Under the pieces are notes generated by a model. It saw nothing but the letters and a program-made list of their open reading frames with translations, was not told where the DNA came from and did not search any database. 64,000 nucleotides of DNA from Desulfonatronum lacustre DSM 10312 (GTDB lineage Bacteria > Desulfobacterota > Desulfovibrionia > Desulfovibrionales > Desulfonatronaceae), in contig NZ_KI912608.1 of assembly GCF_000519265.1 (NCBI RefSeq), forward strand, positions 137,665-201,664. Reading direction: 5' to 3'. Made by a program: the position numbers and the translations under genes. Positions 2,359 to 33,341 of the stretch are shown in pieces. Position 1 is the first letter of the stretch. Every line of letters starts with the position of its first letter.

Positions 2359-2815
2359 AACCATTGAAGGCCGTCTGGACGCCACCGGGCTGCGTTTCGC
2401 GATTCTGGCCAGCCGGTTCAACGACTTCATCGTGGACCGCCTCGTGGGAGGAGCCGTTGACTACCTGGTTCGGCACGGCGCGGCCAAGAGCGACATCACG
2501 CTGGTCCGGATTCCCGGGGCCTATGAAATGCCCCTGGCAGCCAAGCGGCTGGCGGAGACGAAACGCTTTCACGGCGTCGTCTGCCTGGGCGCGGTGATTC
2601 GCGGAGCCACCCCGCATTTCGACTATGTCTCGGCCGAGGTTTCCAAGGGCTTGGCCCAGGTGATGCTGGACACCGGGGTCCCCGTGGGCTTCGGCGTCCT
2701 GACCACGGACACCCTGGAGCAGGCCGTGGAACGGGCCGGCAGCAAGGCCGGCAACAAGGGCGTGGACGCCGCGGCCGCGGCCCTGGAAATGATTCGCGTC
2801 CTGGAACAGGTCTGA
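2345..2815 (+). CDS. ribH: 6,7-dimethyl-8-ribityllumazine synthase
   Basis: Condenses the pyrimidinedione with dihydroxybutanone phosphate to give lumazine, the substrate of RibE. The protein is 156 residues, the normal size for the family. Visible signatures are the [14 protein letters not shown]-terminal substrate loop, [13 protein letters not shown], and [14 protein letters not shown] with the catalytic histidine. It is the last gene of the rib operon. The following 377 bases hold no gene but carry a cloverleaf-like palindrome and a MITE-like element before nusB. Confidence 0.95.
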
Positions 2816-2858
2816 TTTATCTGGCCTGATAAGGGATATGGCTATTACTGAATTTTCG

Positions 2859-2907
2859 TGGTGCAGGCATCCTGCCTGCACTGACAGGCAAGATGCCTGT
2901 CCCACCA
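2859..2907. repeat. Cloverleaf-like double-hairpin palindrome
   Basis: A compact structure just downstream of ribH. Hairpin one is GCAGGCA-tcc-TGCCTGC (2863-2879) and hairpin two is GACAGGCA-aga-TGCCTGTC (2883-2901). They are enclosed by an outer TGGTG/CACCA stem (2859-2863 with 2903-2907). No T-run follows, so it is more likely a dispersed REP-type palindrome than a terminator. Only one copy is present here. Confidence 0.7.
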
Positions 2908-3007
2908 TTTTGACATGCCTCCTGCCCACTCTCGCGGAGCAAAAAATGCGGGCGAGGTAAAAAACGGTAAATTGAGACCCGCCAACTCCCTAAGAGGATC
3001 AACGAGA

Positions 3008-3180
3008 GTAACTACTCAGCACCGAGTAGTGCCGTTGCCGGTGTCGGTATCGGAATCGGGATCGGGATCGAAAACGCTTGGAAACGTTCAAAATTTTTTC
3101 TGTTCCGATTCTGATTCCGATAGCGACCCCGACTCCGATTGCCGGAGCAAGGGCGGATACAAAATGTGCTGAGTAGATAC
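3008..3180 (+). mobile_element. MITE-like element 1, 173 bp, with 8-bp target duplication
   Basis: The left end is GTAACTACTCAGCAC (3008-3022) and the right end GTGCTGAGTAGATAC (3166-3180), a 15-bp terminal inverted repeat with one mismatch. The element is flanked by the perfect direct repeat CAACGAGA (3000-3007 and 3181-3188), a likely target-site duplication. The interior has no credible gene. It is a long imperfect hairpin with arms of ATCGGN-type hexamers (about 3042-3071 and 3105-3145). Ends starting GTAA plus an 8-bp duplication are traits of IS66-family elements; that family assignment is inference. The right boundary lies 12 bases before the nusB start codon. Confidence 0.8.
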
Positions 3181-3192
3181 CAACGAGAAACC

Positions 3193-3729
3193 ATGGAAAC
3201 CCCGAAAGTACACCGACGAGCGGCCCGCAGGCGGGCCTTGCAGTGCGTCTTTGCCCTGAGTTTTCAGAAATTTGAAAATGCGGAGCAGATTCGGCGGGCG
3301 TTTTGGGCCCTGCCCGTGGACGACGACGAGTCGGACGAAGGAAGCGGACCGGGTGAGGTCGGAAAGGCCGGGGCCGGATCGTCCAAAGAGACGATATCAC
3401 AGACGCCGCTTCCAGAGGATCAGGAATTCGGCCTAGGCTTGGTGACCGGCGTTTTTGGTCGGCTGGACGAGATTGACGCGTTGATTCGGCGTTTTTCCAA
3501 GCACTGGAAGATCGAGCGGATCGCCAAGGCCGAACTGAGCATTCTCCGGCTGGGCGTTTACGAATTGCTGTACGAACCGGAGATCCCATTGCGGGTGAGC
3601 ATCAACGAAGCCGTGGAGTTGAGCAAGGAGTTCGCGGACGACCAGTCCTTTCCTTTCGTGAACGGCATTCTCGACGCCGTGGCCAAGGCGGTGAGCCATG
3701 GTGAGTTTGGGATTCGTAAGCAGTTCTGA
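3193..3729 (+). CDS. nusB: Transcription antitermination factor NusB
   Basis: NusB binds boxA RNA with S10 and supports antitermination, mainly on rRNA operons. ATG 3193 is chosen because it starts the conserved helix METPKVHRRAARRRALQCVF; an upstream in-frame extension would run through the MITE-like element. The C-terminal half is standard, with IERIAKAELSILRLGVYEL, SINEAVELSKEF and FVNGILDAV. At 178 residues it is longer than usual (about 140) because of an acidic, Gly/Ser-rich insert at about residues 43-80. The nearest purine-rich sequence before the start, GAGAAA, lies in the element's right-hand target duplication. It overlaps the next gene by 32 bases. Confidence 0.92.
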   Translation: METPKVHRRAARRRALQCVFALSFQKFENAEQIRRAFWALPVDDDESDEGSGPGEVGKAGAGSSKETISQTPLPEDQEFGLGLVTGVFGRLDEIDALIRRFSKHWKIERIAKAELSILRLGVYELLYEPEIPLRVSINEAVELSKEFADDQSFPFVNGILDAVAKAVSHGEFGIRKQF

Positions 3730-4183
3730 CCGCTGTCCCGACCATGCTCGCCATGTCCGCGTCCTGCCCGGCGATGCATCCTCTGTCTCGTTCATGCCGG
3801 CCGACGTCGAAATCGCCCCCGATCCGCTTGGGCGGACGCGCTGGCTCCTGTCCTGGTACGCTCCGGACCTTGTAAACGTCGAAAACTGGGCCAGGGGCAT
3901 GGCGTCGCAATTGGTGGTTCTGGCCTGGAACCCCTGGTGTCTGGATGTGGAATCCTTGGCACGGACCTTGGACCTGTCGACGGATCGAGCCTTGCTGCGC
4001 TGGGGGGAACCGTTCTGGAGCACCTACCACGGTGATTTGCAGGCGGACGTTGTGGTCTATCTGGCCGTGGGTGAGCATCGCCGGTTGGTCTATCAAGCGG
4101 TTCGCCACTGGGAGTCCCGGTTCACGCATCTCCGGTTCGCCACAGAGCACGATCTGGACGGGGGCAAGTCTGATGGGCGGTAA
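3698..4183 (+). CDS. Unknown protein between nusB and leuS
   Basis: 161 residues, overlapping the end of nusB in another frame, which suggests coupled translation. I do not recognise a family. The product is soluble-looking and rich in tryptophan and acidic residues, with segments such as RTRWLLSWYAPDLVNVENW and LVVLAWNPWCLDVESLA and no signal peptide or membrane helix. A later start at ATG 3794 (MPADVEIAPDP) is possible and would shorten it to 129 residues and remove the overlap. The continuous frame between two housekeeping genes on the same strand supports it being real; the function is unknown. Confidence 0.6.
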   Translation: MVSLGFVSSSDRCPDHARHVRVLPGDASSVSFMPADVEIAPDPLGRTRWLLSWYAPDLVNVENWARGMASQLVVLAWNPWCLDVESLARTLDLSTDRALLRWGEPFWSTYHGDLQADVVVYLAVGEHRRLVYQAVRHWESRFTHLRFATEHDLDGGKSDGR

Positions 4184-11872: not shown

Positions 11873-12985
11873 TCAATCCAGTTCGCTGGGTGATGCACGC
11901 TCCGCGAGGTTCTCGCGGCGGATCAGGCGTCGGCGTTCAAGGGGGAGGAACAGGTCGAAGCGCGTACCTTTATCAACGTTCGAGAAAACTTCAACCTTGC
12001 CTTGATGGCTGTCCACGATGCGCTTGAGAATGGCCAAGTCGATGCCGGCGCTGTGGGTTTTGGTGCTGAAAAAAGGTTGGAAGATCGAGGCGATATCCGC
12101 TTCCGGAATGCCGGGGCCGGTGTCCTGAACGCTGAACACGTACCACGGTTCACGGGTTGCTCCCGTAACCCGGATTTCTCCTCCGTCATGGAGCGCGTCC
12201 GCGGCGTTTTCCATGAGGATGGACAGGGTTCTGGAGATCAGGTTCTGGTCCATGAGCAGGTTAGCGGGTTCCACTTCGATCAGGCAGCGCACCCCGGAGG
12301 CCTCCAATTTTTCGGAAAAGATCGAGACGCCCATCTCCACCACCAGTTCCGCCGGCGCGGAAAAGAAGGCCGGTTTGGGCGGGTTGGTGAAGAAATCGAT
12401 CTTGCGAACGATGTTTTCGATCTTCTTCAGGTTGTCCAGGATGCAGTGGTAGGAGGTGTCGTCTTCGTCCGTGGTCTTGCAGGAGGTATACATCTTGCGC
12501 AGATAGCCGCCGATGATCAGCAAGGGGTTGCGGATTTCATGGCCCACTCCGTTGGCCACCCGGAGCAGATCTTGGTAGCCGATCTCCTGAAGGAGCTTTT
12601 CCATTTGCTTTTCGTGGTCAATGTCCAGGATATGGGCCAGAAGCAGACGGCCCCGTGGATGCTCGTATCCACGCAAATGGAGCATGGCCATGAATCGGGT
12701 TCCGCTGCGGCGAAGCAGCATGGCCTGTTCGTCCACGGCCCCTTTTTCCTCGACCAGGTGCAACAGGTTCGGATACAGAATGTCCTGATCCTCGGGAGTG
12801 AAGAGCATGCTCAGCCGCTTGCCGGTCATGCTTTGCGCCCCGTGGCCGAACATGGTCTCCGTCCCGGGATTGGCGACGAGGATGACGCCGTCGGGTTCGC
12901 AGACGAATAGGGCCTGGGGCGAGGACGTCAGCAGGTCGCGCAGGAAGTGCGGACAGTCGATCCGGTCCGTGGGAAACCACGTCAT
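11873..12985 (-). CDS. PAS-domain sensor histidine kinase
   Basis: A 370-residue soluble two-component sensor. AGGAGG five bases before ATG (complement of 12985) fixes the start; an upstream in-frame ATG at 13021 is less likely. A PAS domain (about 8-125; LFVCEPDGVILVANPGTETMFG) is followed by a HisKA-type dimerisation helix with the phospho-acceptor H149 in GVGHEIRNP. The ATPase domain has N box MENAADAL and G1 box DTGPGIP. The G2 box is unusual: THSAGIDLAI replaces the normal GTGLGLAI. No membrane segment is seen, and no response regulator gene is adjacent, so it is an orphan kinase here. Confidence 0.85.
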   Translation of the reverse strand: MTWFPTDRIDCPHFLRDLLTSSPQALFVCEPDGVILVANPGTETMFGHGAQSMTGKRLSMLFTPEDQDILYPNLLHLVEEKGAVDEQAMLLRRSGTRFMAMLHLRGYEHPRGRLLLAHILDIDHEKQMEKLLQEIGYQDLLRVANGVGHEIRNPLLIIGGYLRKMYTSCKTTDEDDTSYHCILDNLKKIENIVRKIDFFTNPPKPAFFSAPAELVVEMGVSIFSEKLEASGVRCLIEVEPANLLMDQNLISRTLSILMENAADALHDGGEIRVTGATREPWYVFSVQDTGPGIPEADIASIFQPFFSTKTHSAGIDLAILKRIVDSHQGKVEVFSNVDKGTRFDLFLPLERRRLIRRENLAERASPSELD

Positions 12986-13160
12986 GAAGCCTCCTGATGA
13001 GAAACAAGTCGAGAGAGGCATCCGCGAGATCCATCCCGTCCGGGATCAGTGGTGAGGATCAGATTGAGGGCGGATGCCGTATTGATCACACTAACAGGAA
13101 AACCGGCTGGTTCCAAGGGTGTTGCCCTGAAGAGACGATTGTTGCTATGTCATGAAACGG

Positions 13161-13327
13161 AGTATCTACTCAGCACATTTTGTGTCCGTTTTTGCTCCGG
13201 CAATCGGGGTCGGAATCGGTATCGGTATCGAAACAGGAAGAGTTGAGAACGCATCCCAGCTTTTTCGATCCCGATCCCGATTCCGATTCCGACCCCGGCA
13301 ACAGAATTATTTTGTGCTGAGTAGTTA
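13161..13327 (-). mobile_element. MITE-like element 2, 167 bp, with 8-bp target duplication
   Basis: The ends are GTATCTACTCAGCAC (13161-13175) and GTGCTGAGTAGTTAC (13313-13327). They are flanked by the perfect direct repeat GAAACGGA (13153-13160 and 13328-13335). The element is the reverse-orientation relative of the one at 3008-3180: both share TACTCAGCACATTTTGT and GCTCCGGCAATCGG next to the TATC-bearing end. The interior is a hairpin of ATCGGN hexamers (about 13195-13231 and 13265-13300). It fills the middle of the 393-base gap between the kinase and dehydrogenase genes; nothing else is recognised there. Confidence 0.82.
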
Positions 13328-13378
13328 CGAAACGGATTCGTAAAACCAAATCAAACTCATAATTGCAAGGAGGACGTC

Positions 13379-14389
13379 ATGAAGGAAATACACGCGAAAG
13401 CGCGTGCGCTGATGAAGGGATACTGCCGGGTCTGTCCGGTGTGCGACGGCCGGGTGTGCGCGGGCGAGGTGCCGGGCATGGGCGGCCTGGGTACGGGATC
13501 GTCCTTTCAGGACAATATCCGGGCCCTGGCGGAAATTCATTTCAACATGCGTTGTCTGCACGACGTGGTCACGCCGGATTTGTCCGTTTCGCTGCTGGGC
13601 TTTGATTTGTCTCTGCCCGTCCTGGCCGCGCCCATCGGCGGGGTCTCCTTCAATATGGGCGGCGGGGTGCCGGAGGATGCGTATATCCTGGCCAAGCTGA
13701 CGGCCTGCGTGGAGGCCGGGACCGTGGGTTGCACAGGCGACGGCGTGCCGGACTTCATCCATGAAAGCGGTTTTGCCGCGGTCAAGGCCCTGGACGGGAA
13801 AGGCATCCCGTTCATCAAGCCCTGGGAGGACCAGGAATTGTTCACCAAGCTGGACAAGGCCCTGGACGCCGGGGCCGAGGTGGTGGGGGTGGACGTGGAC
13901 GCCGCCGGGTTGGTCACGCTGCGCAAGATGGGCCGACCCGTGGCCCCCAAGCCGGTGTCCGAACTGGCGGCGGTGATCCGGCGGACCAAGGCCAGGTTCG
14001 TGGTCAAGGGGGTGATGACGCCGGACGAGGCCAAGCTGTGCGTGGATGCCGGGGCCGCCGGAATCGTGGTCTCCAACCATGGCGGACGGGTCCTGGACGG
14101 AACGCCGGGCACGGCCAGGGTGCTGCGCGAAGTGGCCGACGCCGTTCGCGGCCAGATCGCCGTACTGGCCGACGGCGGAGTACGCTCCGGCGCGGATGTC
14201 CTGCGGATGCTGGCCCTGGGGGCGGATGCGGTGATGATCGGGCGGCCCTTTTCCGTGGCCGTGCTCGGCGGCGGCAAGGAAGGGGCGGCGCAATACCTGG
14301 AAAAAATCCGCCAGGAACTGACCCAGTGCATGGTCCTGACCGGCACGGCTTCGGTTCGCGCCGTGGATTCTCGGATTATCCGCCGATAG
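13379..14389 (+). CDS. FMN-dependent alpha-hydroxy-acid dehydrogenase
   Basis: A TIM-barrel flavoenzyme of the LldD/glycolate-oxidase family, 336 residues, expected to oxidise a 2-hydroxy acid such as L-lactate to the keto acid. The catalytic base is H234 in SNHGGR. The FMN phosphate site is DGGVRSGADVLRMLALGADA followed by IGRP. The N-terminus carries a cysteine cluster (CRVCPVCDGRVC), seen in anaerobe members and absent from classical LldD. AAGGAGG precedes the start. It is monocistronic and 44 bases downstream of MITE-like element 2. The true substrate is not predictable; isopentenyl-diphosphate isomerase type 2 is a related alternative but fits less well. Confidence 0.85.
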   Translation: MKEIHAKARALMKGYCRVCPVCDGRVCAGEVPGMGGLGTGSSFQDNIRALAEIHFNMRCLHDVVTPDLSVSLLGFDLSLPVLAAPIGGVSFNMGGGVPEDAYILAKLTACVEAGTVGCTGDGVPDFIHESGFAAVKALDGKGIPFIKPWEDQELFTKLDKALDAGAEVVGVDVDAAGLVTLRKMGRPVAPKPVSELAAVIRRTKARFVVKGVMTPDEAKLCVDAGAAGIVVSNHGGRVLDGTPGTARVLREVADAVRGQIAVLADGGVRSGADVLRMLALGADAVMIGRPFSVAVLGGGKEGAAQYLEKIRQELTQCMVLTGTASVRAVDSRIIRR

Positions 14390-15126: not shown

Positions 15127-17178
15127 CTAAAACTTTTCAAACTCGTCGTCATCCTTGCCCATGTCCAGGGCGAAACCCTGGCCTTTGGGCGCCTGCTTGC
15201 CCGCCGGAATGGGCGCGGCGGCTCTGGCTCCGCCGCCGAGCAGATTGCCCGCGGGCTTACGGGGGTGGGGGACGCGTCGCATGGAGCCGGACTCGCTGTT
15301 CATTTTAAAGAAGGCCATGGTGGCTTGGAGTTCCTCGGCCTGGCTGGAGAGTTCCTCGGCGGTGGAGGCCATCTCCTCGGCCGCCGATGCGTTCTGTTGG
15401 ATGACCTGGTCCAGTTGTTGAATGGCCTTGTTGATCTGTTCCACGCCGATGCTCTGTTCCCGGCTGGCCGCGTTGATCTCTTGGATTAGTTCCGCGGTGC
15501 GCTGGATGTCCGGGACGATCTTGACCAGCATTTCCCCGGCCTGCTCAGCCACCTGCACGCTGGACCTGGACAGTTCGCTGATCTCCGTGGCAGCGGAGCC
15601 GCTGCGTTCGGCCAGCTTGCGCACTTCGGCGGCCACTACCGCGAAGCCCTTGCCCGCGTCTCCGGCCCGGGCCGCTTCGATGGCCGCGTTCAGGGCCAGC
15701 AAATTGGTCTGTCGGGCGATTTCCTCAATGATGGAAATTTTCTCCGCGATTTGCTTCATGGCCGTCACGGTCTGAGACACGGCCTGCCCGCCTTCCTGGG
15801 CGTCCTTGGCCGCCTGCAAGGCGATCTTCTCGGTCTGCGCCGCGTTGTCCGCGTTCTGCTTGATGTTCGCGGTCATCTCTTCCATGCTGGAAGAGACTTC
15901 TTCCACCGAGGCCGCTTGTTCCGTGGCGCCCTGGGACATTTGTTCCGCTGAAGCGGAAAGTTGCTCGCTGCCCGAAGCCACGTTCTCCGAGGCCGACTTG
16001 ACCCCGCCCACGATTTCCCGGAGCTTGGTCTGCATATCCTGCATGGCCTTGCCCAGCACGCCGATTTCGTCCTTCTGGTCCACGTCCAGGCGGGCATCCA
16101 GGTCGCCCTCGGACAGGTCCTCGGAGAAGCGCACGCCCTGGCTGACCGGGCCGGTGACGGCCCTGGTCAGGATGATACCCAGAGCCATGGCCAGGATCAC
16201 GCCGATGACGACCCCGGCGATGGCCACGGTCTGGGCCATCGCGGCGTCGGCTTCGGCTTCGGCAACGGCTGTATCCGTATAACGCTGGTTCAACTCAAGA
16301 TTTTGGTCGAGCAATCTGATTGCTTCGACCTGGCGCTCGCGGACTTCAACCATGGCGGTTTGGGTCATATTGTTGAACATGGCCTCAGCTTCCTGGGCCA
16401 CGGCCAGCAGTTCTTCGAACCGGGCAAAGGTTTCGTTGGCCATCGGGATGGTTTCACGTGCCAAAATTTGGTTTGCCGCTGCGGTGTCGCCGGTGTTCAC
16501 CAGTCGCTTGATGTTGGCGATGGAAGTGTGAAACGGGTTGTGCGAGGCAGGCATCCGGCGAAGGATTTCCTGCAAGCGCGGGTTCTCAGTGCGGAAGGTG
16601 GAGAGCCAGCGTCCGAAGTTGCAGCCTGTGGGATCCTCGCCGCCCTCAAAAGTCTGGTCGCGGGTGATCAAGGCATAAACCTGACCGACCAATGCGTGAT
16701 GGTCTCCGCGAAACTGCTGCAGGTTCGCACGCAGGACTGCGGGATCGTTGATGCCGGTACGTTGCAGTTCGCGGCCCATCTCAATGAACTGGTCGTTTAC
16801 AGCCCGCCAGGCGTCCAGGGCCGTAATCGTCTGCCGCCACAGGGCGGCTCCGTCGGCCGTGGCCGGCATCGCCTCGAATTCCTCGCGCAGTTTGGCGATG
16901 GCCGCGCGTTGGCGGGTCAGGTTGTCGAATTGGCGTTGCGTATCCTCCTGGCTCAGGCCCGGGATGAGCAGGGTGCGCTGGGCCACGCGCAGGGATTCGT
17001 ATTCCTTTTCAATGTTCTGCAGGGCCTGAATGCTCGGCAGGCGAACAGCTCCGACCTCTTCGATGTGCCCGGTCAGGTTGCGGGCTTCCCACCACCCGAA
17101 CGCCCCCACGATGAAGACGATCAACGCTACGACGGCAAACCCACCGATGAGCTTCACACCAAGACGAATGTTTTTCAT
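15127..17178 (-). CDS. Methyl-accepting chemotaxis protein with CZB-like sensor region
   Basis: A 683-residue transmembrane chemoreceptor. TM1 is at about 8-30, a long extracytoplasmic sensor at 31-315, TM2 at about 317-338, then HAMP and the signalling domain with its conserved hairpin tip ([20 protein letters not shown]). The sensor contains H160, C186 in CNFGRWL, H213 and H217. This matches the zinc-ligand layout of the CZB domain, which is usually cytoplasmic. The C-terminal tail is Pro/Gly/Ala-rich and ends in acidic residues, without a clear CheR-tethering pentapeptide. AGGAGAAGGGCT precedes ATG (complement of 17178). It probably forms a unit with the downstream cheW. Confidence 0.93.
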
Positions 17179-20436: not shown

Positions 20437-20526
20437 CGCATCGAAATCGTGATCGAAATCGATTTCTGGCAACCTTCCGATTTCGATAGCGATTTCGATC
20501 ACGATTTCGATCACGATTTCGATGCG
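20437..20526. repeat. Period-6 ATCGAA hairpin with perfect 25-bp inverted repeat (copy B)
   Basis: The left arm (20437-20461, beginning CGCATCGAAATCG) and right arm (20502-20526, ending CGATTTCGATGCG) are perfect reverse complements over 25 bases. They enclose a 40-base middle with further TTTCGAT units. Read on the minus strand it contains the GGAA-N-CAGAAATCGATTTCGAT core shared with the hairpins near 41.4 and 50.1 kb. It lies between the DedA-like and PaaI-like genes. Confidence 0.85.
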
Positions 20527-22391: not shown

Positions 22392-24092
22392 TTACTGTAC
22401 CCGAACGTCCGCGGCGATGACCCCGAGGATGCGACCTTCGGCATCGCGGAAGGGCGTGGACACGGTGATGCAGGGTTCTCCAGAGGCTTGGGACGTGTAG
22501 ACATTGGAGATGTAAGGGATGGGGGTGCGCATGGCCTCGGTGAACCAGGGGCGGGCGCTCCAGTCTTTGCCGAAGGCATTCCGGTCCGAGGAGGATTCCA
22601 GGCTCGGTCTGGGGATGTTCGCCGTGAGCTGGATGCCTTGGGCGTCGGTGATGTAGAGCAGTTCGAGAAAATTATTGCGGCGGACGGTTTCGCGCATCGT
22701 TGTTTCCATCGCCTTACGGTCCAGGGAGAGGACCTCCTTGGAGCGGGCCAGGGAGTCGACCAGCTCTTGCACGGCCCCTTTGCCGATCAACTCGAAGACC
22801 CTGGTCAGGGTGATCAGGTCCCGAACTCGGCGGGAGAGGTTGTCAATTTCAGAAAGGGAACGGCTCATGTCGTCCTGGGTGGTGGTGGAGATGGAGCTGA
22901 CCTCGGTCAATGTCCTGGTAATCTCCTCGCTGGCCTTGGATTGCTGATGCACGGCCTCTGCGATGGATTGGGCTTGAAGGGCCGATTCCTGGGACAGATC
23001 GACGATTTCGGCCAAAGACGCTCCGGATTCGTTGGACAGAGCCACGGTCTTGTCCACCAGATCCATGGTTTCGCGGACCTCTTGAACCGCTTTTCGGACA
23101 CGGGTTTGGATTGCCTGCACTTCATGCCCCACATCCTTGGTGGCGTTCATGGTTTTTTCGGCCAGCTTGCGCACCTCGTCGGCCACCACGGCGAAACCAC
23201 GCCCGGCGTTCCCGGCCCGAGCCGCCTCGATGGCCGCGTTCAGGGCCAATAGGTTGGTCTGGTCCGCGATGTCCGAGATGACGTCCATGATCCCATCGAT
23301 GGTTTCGGCCTGACGCCCCAGTTCGGCGATGGAGCCGGACAACTCGCCGCCCTTGTCGGCCACGGCCGTGACCGCGTCCAGGGTTTCCCGAACGATTCGC
23401 GCTCCGGCCTCTGCCCTGCTTCGGGCCTGGGATGAACTGGTTGAGGCGTCCCCCGCGTGGCGGGCCGCTTCCAGAATGGAGGCGTTCATCTGCTCCATGG
23501 CCGCGGCGGCTTCGATGGTGTGCCGCTGTTGACGCTGGGCGCCCTGGTCCGCCTGGTCCACGGCTGCTTTCAGTTTCTCGGCCTCCCGGGTGATCCCGCC
23601 TACCGATTCCCGAAGCACGTCCACGGCGGACCGAATGGTCCCGCAGCGGGCCTGTTCAGCCCCGGACAAGGTTTGGGACAGGGCTGTGCTTGTGGATTGC
23701 AGTTGCCCGGAAAGGGAGTGGCGCTTTGCGGTTTCCTGATGGTTACGCCGGACCACGTCTTGATAGGCCGACACAAGCCCGGCCAGTTCCCGCTCCAGGC
23801 CATCCAGGTTTGGAAAATGAATTGTTTCCGGTGAGTTCGGGGCGGACCCGGGTAGGTCGGCCTGTTCAGGGCGACCGGAAGTGTCCGTCGCGAGGCGCAG
23901 CAGATGGATGGCGCGTTGGACATTTTTGTCTCGACGATGGCCAAGGCCGAGGACAGCCCCCAGGCTGAGCAGAGCCGCCGGAATCAGAGCCCATCGAAGC
24001 TCTGCGAGGGTGGTCCCGTGAAGCAAGGAAAGGACGAGCAGGGCCAGAAAAATGCCGGCCAGGATCAATGTGAGCGAAAGATGTGATTTCAT
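22392..24092 (-). CDS. Methyl-accepting chemotaxis protein with C-terminal Cache/PDC-like domain
   Basis: A 566-residue chemoreceptor-like protein. Two adjacent N-terminal membrane helices (about 5-25 and 33-51) have almost no loop between them, so there is no external sensor. The signalling domain has its conserved tip ([20 protein letters not shown]) in mid-protein. After it, about residues 460-566 resemble a PDC/Cache sensor fold: [30 protein letters not shown] and [18 protein letters not shown]. That places ligand sensing on the cytoplasmic side and C-terminal to the signalling domain, an inverted architecture. It converges with the MATE gene, 14 bases apart. Confidence 0.9.
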
Positions 24093-33117: not shown

Positions 33118-33341
33118 GTAACTACTCACTTGCGTTCCGGCTTGTCTCGATTTTTCAGCCTCGCAACTCCTTCCCCGGCTTCGTAACATCGAACCATTGC
33201 CCGAATATACAACAGTCGGCACTTCAGGCGTCCGGCAATGGTTCGATGAACGAATCCTGGCTCAGTCAGACAAGCGAGGCTGAAAAATCGAGACAAGCCG
33301 GAACACTCCATGTCTTGCGTGAAAAAGTGCTGAGTAGTTAC
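33118..33341 (+). mobile_element. MITE-like element 3, 224 bp, same ends but different core
   Basis: The right end GTGCTGAGTAGTTAC (33327-33341) is identical to element 2. The left end GTAACTACTCA (33118-33128) matches for 11 bases and then diverges. The interior has no ATCGGN hexamers. It is a nested palindrome: TTCCGGCTTGTCTCGATTTT (from 33135) pairs with AAAATCGAGACAAGCCGGAA (to 33303), and an inner CATCGAACCATTGCC / GGCAATGGTTCGATG pair lies at about 33187 and 33233. The flanking 8-mers ATGGCTTC and ACGGCCAC agree at only five of eight positions, so any target duplication has decayed. It sits in the 544-base gap before rpsF. Confidence 0.7.

Follow-up and report, generated by a model that had tools for sequence, protein, structure and literature searches.

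The repeat at 13162-13328 of the window (the whole analysed stretch of 64,000 nucleotides from Desulfonatronum lacustre DSM 10312) is a miniature inverted-repeat transposable element (MITE) of exactly 167 bp, and very probably belongs to an orphan, non-autonomous group formerly mobilized in trans by an ISBst12-type transposase, i.e., a single-ORF member of the IS66 family, as judged from sequence comparison. The MITE is well supported but an ordinary kind of element. What is added to the preliminary description is (i) the assignment of the ends to the IS66 family (ISBst12 type), (ii) the lack of the transposase in the host, and (iii) the combination of constant ends with changing interiors. 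The element, referred to as copy 2, is composed as follows:

13154..13161 (no strand): left target-site duplication of copy 2, GAAACGGA, occurring only once at the empty site in G003
13162..13328 (plus strand): MITE copy 2, 167 bp, hexamer-hairpin subfamily (a)
13162..13177 (plus strand): terminal inverted repeat of copy 2, GTAT-type end GTATCTACTCAGCACA
13205..13297 (no strand): interior arms of copy 2 (13205-13248 and 13254-13297), rich in TCGGNA / CCGATN hexamers
13313..13328 (minus strand): terminal inverted repeat of copy 2, GTAA-type end GTAACTACTCAGCACA
13329..13336 (no strand): right target-site duplication of copy 2, GAAACGGA

From 13154 to 13336 the order is GAAACGGA, GTATCTACTCAGCACA ... 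TGTGCTGAGTAGTTAC, GAAACGGA. The 8-bp duplication that the preliminary description had ascribed to this copy is present, but the span given there (13153-13335) lies one base too far to the left. The hexamer arms are 77 % complementary and form the interior of a full-length hairpin; copy 2 folds as one such hairpin with z-scores of -11.83 as RNA and -8.97 as DNA, none of 200 shuffles being equally stable in either case. Copy 2 is located between a PAS/histidine-kinase gene (11873-13021, minus strand) and a gene for an FMN-dependent dehydrogenase (13379-14389, plus strand), the ATG of the latter lying 50 bp downstream of the element. A consensus scan of 13022-13400 yielded neither promoter-like nor terminator-like sites.

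The window contains two further copies with the same ends:

3000..3007 (no strand): left target-site duplication of copy 1, CAACGAGA
3008..3180 (minus strand): MITE copy 1, 173 bp, subfamily (a), in opposite orientation to copy 2
3181..3188 (no strand): right target-site duplication of copy 1, CAACGAGA
33118..33341 (no strand): third copy, 224 bp, subfamily (c), with the same ends and another interior

Copy 1, at 3008-3180 with CAACGAGA on both sides, is element 1 of the preliminary description, in which copy 2 had been placed 10 kb away in inverted orientation with a different perfect 8-mer. Aligned as inverted repeats, copies 1 and 2 share 82 % identity over 125 nt and 83 % over 81 nt; the shared inner sequence is thus present as described, but is not confined to the vicinity of one end, since the likeness spans nearly the whole length. 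The flanks of the third copy (ATGGCTTC / ACGGCCAC) agree at five of eight positions and form no clear duplication. With at most one mismatch, the end 11-mer occurs five times in the window versus a mean of 0.31 in shuffled sequence, the fifth match being part of the third copy (33118-33341).

The host genome (G000) is a single 3.76-Mb contig, of which the window represents positions 137665-201664. Allowing one mismatch, the 12-base end is found 85 times in forward and 78 times in reverse orientation, as opposed to 3 + 3 occurrences of the pattern read backwards. Among the listed matches, 101 end clusters were formed and the ends paired (up to three mismatches per end, no indels), and at least 85 elements were kept; these 85 paired copies are a lower bound, at least one weak place (near 830069) being left out. 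Five pairings were removed by hand: four long-range mis-pairings (285, 420, 536 and 584 bp) and a 187-bp copy (L107, 1453-1639) with flanks agreeing at 3/8, the counting of which would change the proportion of perfect duplications given below to 41/86. The length of 84 of the 85 listed copies is 149-239 bp, while in the one of 438 bp (L142) other sequence seems to interrupt the interior. A full-length neighbour exists for 81 of the 85 listed copies (median identity 93.9 %). Fourteen host stretches with unpaired ends revealed MITE-like copies and fragments only, and no autonomous element was seen in them. Taken as a group, the copies are short, possess inverted ends, occur many times with target-site duplications and carry no transposase gene, as expected of a MITE. 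Reading frames spanning 37 insertion sites (those of the 53 copies with duplications at 7-8/8 whose flanks were long enough) have a median of 269 codons versus 393 at 2,000 random window sites, and 249 at positions shifted by 450 bp within these flanks.

A perfect 8-bp duplication flanks 41 of the 85 listed copies, and all 41 8-mers differ from each other, also when either strand is considered. Twelve more listed copies agree at 7/8, giving 53/85 at 7-8/8. This level was reached by only 28 of 7,140 comparisons in a cross-copy control (left 8-mer versus the right one of another copy) and by none of the 85 pairs of outer 8-mers, one step further out. By length, 41 exact flanking repeats have eight bases and 0-2 each have 3-7 or 9-13 bases. 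The duplicated 8-mers (53 copies at 7-8/8) have a G+C content of 36 % versus 57 % in the 300-bp flanks, and reading the 41 perfect ones on both strands places an A at position 2 in 43 of 82 cases. The preliminary description had held copies lacking 8-bp duplications to speak against transposition; such copies do exist (32/85 match at six or fewer flanking positions, five of them at 6/8), but the remaining 53 agree at 7-8/8. Because the decay is graded (12 copies at 7/8, five at 6/8) and no other length is preferred, the poor duplications are most plausibly attributed to the age of the insertions, to rearrangement of copies and to mis-pairing of ends, and not to a different mechanism.

Related genomes provide a second line of evidence. 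The congener set comprises eight genomes, the host belonging to the same genus, which is the only one of its family in the classification of the collection. In G003 (Desulfonatronum sp. isolate CSSed162cmB_308, as identified by the exact occurrence of locus L115 within SKYX01000039.1), the flanks of copy 2 align to stretches overlapping by exactly eight bases (contig 265, 2125-2760 / 2753-3813), and the same overlap of exactly eight bases is found for the flank targets of copy 1 (contig 102, 101-773 / 1-108). Joined flanks aligned to G003 have one GAAACGGA and one CAACGAGA, respectively, at the join and are gapless there. These empty sites are direct evidence of insertion at both window sites. 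Copies 1 and 2 are also missing at the corresponding places of the congener G002, where the targets are more diverged. Since the two-sided 8-mers and the empty sites represent two independent tests, the transposition that the preliminary description had deduced from two copies is now supported by 41/85 different perfect 8-mers together with exact empty sites for both window copies.

Alternatively, the repeats could be palindromic units (REP/REPIN-like sequences, structural RNA or terminator hairpins) that were spread otherwise and are flanked by repeats due to chance. The very stable full-length hairpin fits this assumption, as do hexamer tracts devoid of the MITE ends in congener G005 (L355, L356), and it may describe the origin of the interior. 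For the whole element it is opposed by the exact empty sites, and it is hardly compatible with exact 8-bp duplications at 41/85 listed copies without any other preferred length, with three unrelated interiors having the same ends, or with the lack of any Rfam family at gathering score in the window. REP/REPIN palindromes moved by RAYT insert without target duplication, whereas the MITE displays 8-bp duplications. Altogether, this account is extremely improbable.

The MITE ends, GTA[A/T]CTACTCAGCACA, match those of single-ORF insertion sequences of the IS66 family. A scan of genome contigs for GTAACTACTCAGCACA retrieved 86 stretches, and 18 of the 80 listed hold an end pair with identical flanking 8-mers (one end with at most one mismatch, the other with at most five; counted without a chance control). 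The most complete counterpart is a 1,545-bp element of Paraglaciecola sp. MB-3u-78, present in five complete copies (L206, L243, L255, L263, L272) with five different perfect 8-bp duplications. Its single ORF encodes an IS66 transposase of 473 aa (PF03050, E 6.2e-44; NF033517, E 2.7e-84); the whole protein is found at five of eight loci, while the other three end at the edge of the stretch and are 100 % identical as far as present. The stop codon TAG of the transposase gene (L206, 111-1532) is located inside the end repeat, so that the repeat encodes the last residues. We know of no name for this element, which we assign to the ISBst12 group on the basis of its single ORF and its ends. Like the MITE, with which it shares 13 to 16 terminal bp, it has GTAACTACTCAGC ends and perfect 8-bp duplications; unlike the MITE it carries the transposase, and its host is a gammaproteobacterium. 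A comparison made with the protein revealed no likeness between the MITE interior and the insertion sequence beyond the ends.

The Paraglaciecola protein matched 136 plasmid records, and the surroundings of the gene were searched, free of any motif, for inverted ends and a duplication in 6 of the 25 listed matches. Ends starting with GTA[A/T]C and a perfect 8-bp duplication were found in five of these six elements, and in three of the six (Deinococcus, Geobacillus, Oceanisphaera) both ends deviate by at most one mismatch from GTA[A/T]CTACTCAGC. The element of Deinococcus wulumuqiensis ends with GTAACTGCTCAGC, close to the MITE; that of Geobacillus kaustophilus with GTAACTATTCAGC / GTATCTATTCAGC, i.e., one GTAA and one GTAT end as in MITE copy 2; and that of Oceanisphaera with GTAACTATTCAGC on both sides, without duplication. 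Ends are two mismatches from the motif in Planococcus lenghuensis (GTAACTACTTAGG) and two to four in Chlorohelix and Octadecabacter. In the record of the Geobacillus plasmid, ISGka4 denotes an IS66-like element, unlike the usage in the excerpt of PMC8024623, where ISGka4 is an ISLre2 element with 9-bp repeats; the present comparison is by sequence alone. For the IS66 elements ISPpa5a and ISPpa7, the excerpt of PMC3281130 gives 8 as the column value.

The closest characterized relative is ISDge4 of Deinococcus geothermalis (ISBst12 group, IS66 family), which according to the excerpt of PMC12898284 has the terminal inverted repeats GTGACTACTCAGCA / GTAACTGCTCAGCA, generates an 8-bp direct repeat, has been observed to transpose and is described as copy-and-paste. 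ISDge4 thus resembles the MITE in its nearly identical ends and in the 8-bp direct repeat upon insertion, but encodes a transposase of 449 aa, for which the MITE has no gene. With ends of the form GTA[A/T]CTACTCAGC and an 8-bp target duplication, the MITE displays the features of the ISBst12 type; lacking an IS66 transposase gene of its own, it is not an IS66 element itself.

Target duplications of about 8 bp are also generated by the IS1595, ISL3, IS256 and IS6 families. One may argue that a transposase of such a type moves the MITE and that the likeness to IS66 ends is convergent, the more so since the host has no IS66 transposase and the search of its genome covered IS66 only. Convergence would, however, have to account for 13 to 16 terminal bp in common with an intact IS66 element, for 12-13 of 13 positions shared with the Deinococcus, Geobacillus and Oceanisphaera elements, which belong to different phyla (the duplication, where seen, being of equal length), for the same GTAA/GTAT asymmetry in Geobacillus, for the nearly identical ends reported for ISDge4 in the excerpt cited above, and for an IS66 relic in a congener (G004) that ends in the same sequence. 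We consider this explanation very unlikely and favour mobilization by an ISBst12-type enzyme.

Transposases of DDE insertion sequences bind the end repeats and join them to target strands cut at a fixed distance, resulting in a duplication of fixed length. In case of the MITE, the enzyme provided in trans would be a transposase of the IS66 family (ISBst12 type) that recognises the paired ends GTA[A/T]CTACTCAGCACA and joins them to target strands cut eight bases apart, and repair would convert this stagger into the 8-bp duplication. The interior would represent cargo; in the main subfamily it is a hairpin whose hexamer arms vary in length.

The host genome contains no match to PF03050 or to the Paraglaciecola protein, nor did the transposase query match any of the host loci read. 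Because no such transposase was found, we infer that the present host genome cannot move its MITE copies by itself. An early case against an IS66 origin, built on this lack of an IS66 domain in the host, was overturned by the occurrence of the same ends on intact IS66 elements elsewhere. Within the genus, PF03050 is present at eight places in two of the eight genomes (G004 and G006). In G004 (Desulfovibrionales bacterium GEM2.Bin26, by a 300-base identical match), a broken copy (C27, L197) shares 53 % identity over residues 391-466 of the Paraglaciecola protein and ends with ...NAE-stop (up to 1741) inside GCTGAGTAGTTAC, the stop being placed within the end repeat as in Paraglaciecola. A second end of this relic was not found in the stretch read. 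Among the IS66 places of G004 and G006 only this relic has an end at the right place. The IS66 element of G006 read in L194 is of another kind, with GTAAGCGC ends and GTCCGTGG on both sides. A MITE is located near the IS66 place of L193. The G004 relic indicates that a gene of the ISBst12 type with the same end repeat was once present in the genus. Based on the end likeness, the duplication length and this relic, we infer that the enzyme acting in trans in Desulfonatronum would have been of the ISBst12 type. What speaks against this reading is that the intact counterpart resides in a gammaproteobacterium and not in the genus Desulfonatronum. The lack of such a transposase in the host, the 32/85 copies with poor duplications, the absence of a duplication in Oceanisphaera and the more distant ends in Chlorohelix, Octadecabacter and Planococcus also count against it. 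Across 149 genomes of the class, four protein matches were obtained at 1e-20 (a threshold which the G004 relic, being weaker, does not reach); three of the four have one end of the right type nearby, and none has a complete element within the stretch examined.

The family could still be mobile in the host by means of a transposase arriving on plasmids or phages, which would be compatible with former mobilization by an ISBst12-type enzyme. In its favour, 17 listed copies have a full-length neighbour with at least 97 % identity (maximum 100 %), and both window sites are empty in G003. Against this stand the lack of a transposase in the single 3.76-Mb contig and of any match of the element DNA in the plasmid collection. 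The 15-base end pattern occurs in 53 stretches of viral contigs, a number compatible with chance by judgement rather than calculation. Overall, continued mobility appears unlikely, albeit to a much lesser degree than the two alternatives above.

At least three interiors are associated with the same ends in the host, and perfect duplications were seen for each (e.g., L003; L154, L163, L339; L126): (a) arms of TCGGNA/CCGATN hexamers in 76 of 86 listed elements (k-mer rule), (b) a double hairpin CTGGATTCCCGC...GCGGGAATGAC, and (c) a long palindrome with TTGTCTCGATTTTTCGGC. The (b) interior is present in all eight genus genomes (1 to 74 matches each, some counted on both strands); most of 30 such loci read by eye have the ends, while L314, L320, L321 and L333 have none or no clear ones. 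Outside the census, 1 of 12 further host sites with the (b) interior has a perfect duplication and six have no end pair at four mismatches; of six sites in G007 with this interior, none has a perfect duplication and two match at 7/8.

In subfamily (a), the unit numbers of the two halves are uncorrelated (r 0.12, 76 copies), with no compensation in arm length, and 18 copies carry a motif of the GCGCTTCGC type in their left half, five have its inverted form in the right half, and no copy has it in both. Since the halves vary independently and this motif switches the half upon inversion, it is as if the arms exchange sequence. In one host copy (L107, 1453-1639), the two end regions are inverted copies of each other far past the 16-bp repeat, a structure which suggests an exchange between the arms or a template switch inside the palindrome. 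Short end-to-end derivatives are probably internal deletions (L121, 1013-1081, 69 bp, subfamily (a), in G003; L190, 4097-4147, 51 bp, subfamily (c), in the host).

Even smaller is a 50-bp element in a Thiotrichaceae MAG (JALVDG010000275.1, L252, 7630-7679), which consists of little beyond the two ends and has a perfect AATACTTT duplication. Since at least three interiors, each seen with perfect duplications, are framed by the same ends and this bare element exists, one may tentatively speculate, with limited confidence, that the mobile unit is only a pair of ISBst12-type ends of about 16-22 bp, which repeatedly captured unrelated, pre-existing hairpin repeats. The hairpin interiors may have been selected for helping the element to transpose or to survive.

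The MITE ends, together with 8-bp duplications, are also found on repeats in gammaproteobacterium JALSHZ (141-143 bp), Thiotrichaceae JALVDG (50 and 142 bp) and Paludibacter UBA5753 (221 bp), but their interiors, as judged by eye, differ from those of the host MITE. The excerpt of PMC4596501 describes BrickBuilt of Porphyromonas gingivalis as similarly multi-copy with small inverted-repeat ends and internal tandem units; these units are, however, of 23 nt, and no link to IS66 is named there. IS66 does not occur in a 2024 review of prokaryotic MITEs (PMC10969869). A literature search within open-licence PubMed Central yielded no IS66-derived MITE, and one may exist beyond that scope. The present assignment ties an abundant repeat of the genus to a specific transposase group and provides the little-studied ISBst12 group with natural small substrates (50-240 bp), of which the 50-bp element of L252 is a very small mobile unit with ISBst12-type ends. 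Filled versus empty sites offer a chance to test the effects of such insertions beside genes.

The window contains further repeats. A separate dispersed repeat (around GCAGGCATCCTGCCTGCACTGACAGGCAAGATGCCTGTCCCACC) is located at about 2830-2994, directly upstream of MITE copy 1; the congeners G002 to G007 also match it, with numerous places in G002, G003 and G006. At 20437-20526, ATCGAAATCGTGATCGAAATCG units form a hairpin with perfect arms of 25 nt and without MITE ends; similar hexamer tracts were found in G005 (L355). Finally, a 144-nt direct repeat with 76 % identity occupies 15607-15750 and 23157-23300, its two units being 7,550 bases apart.
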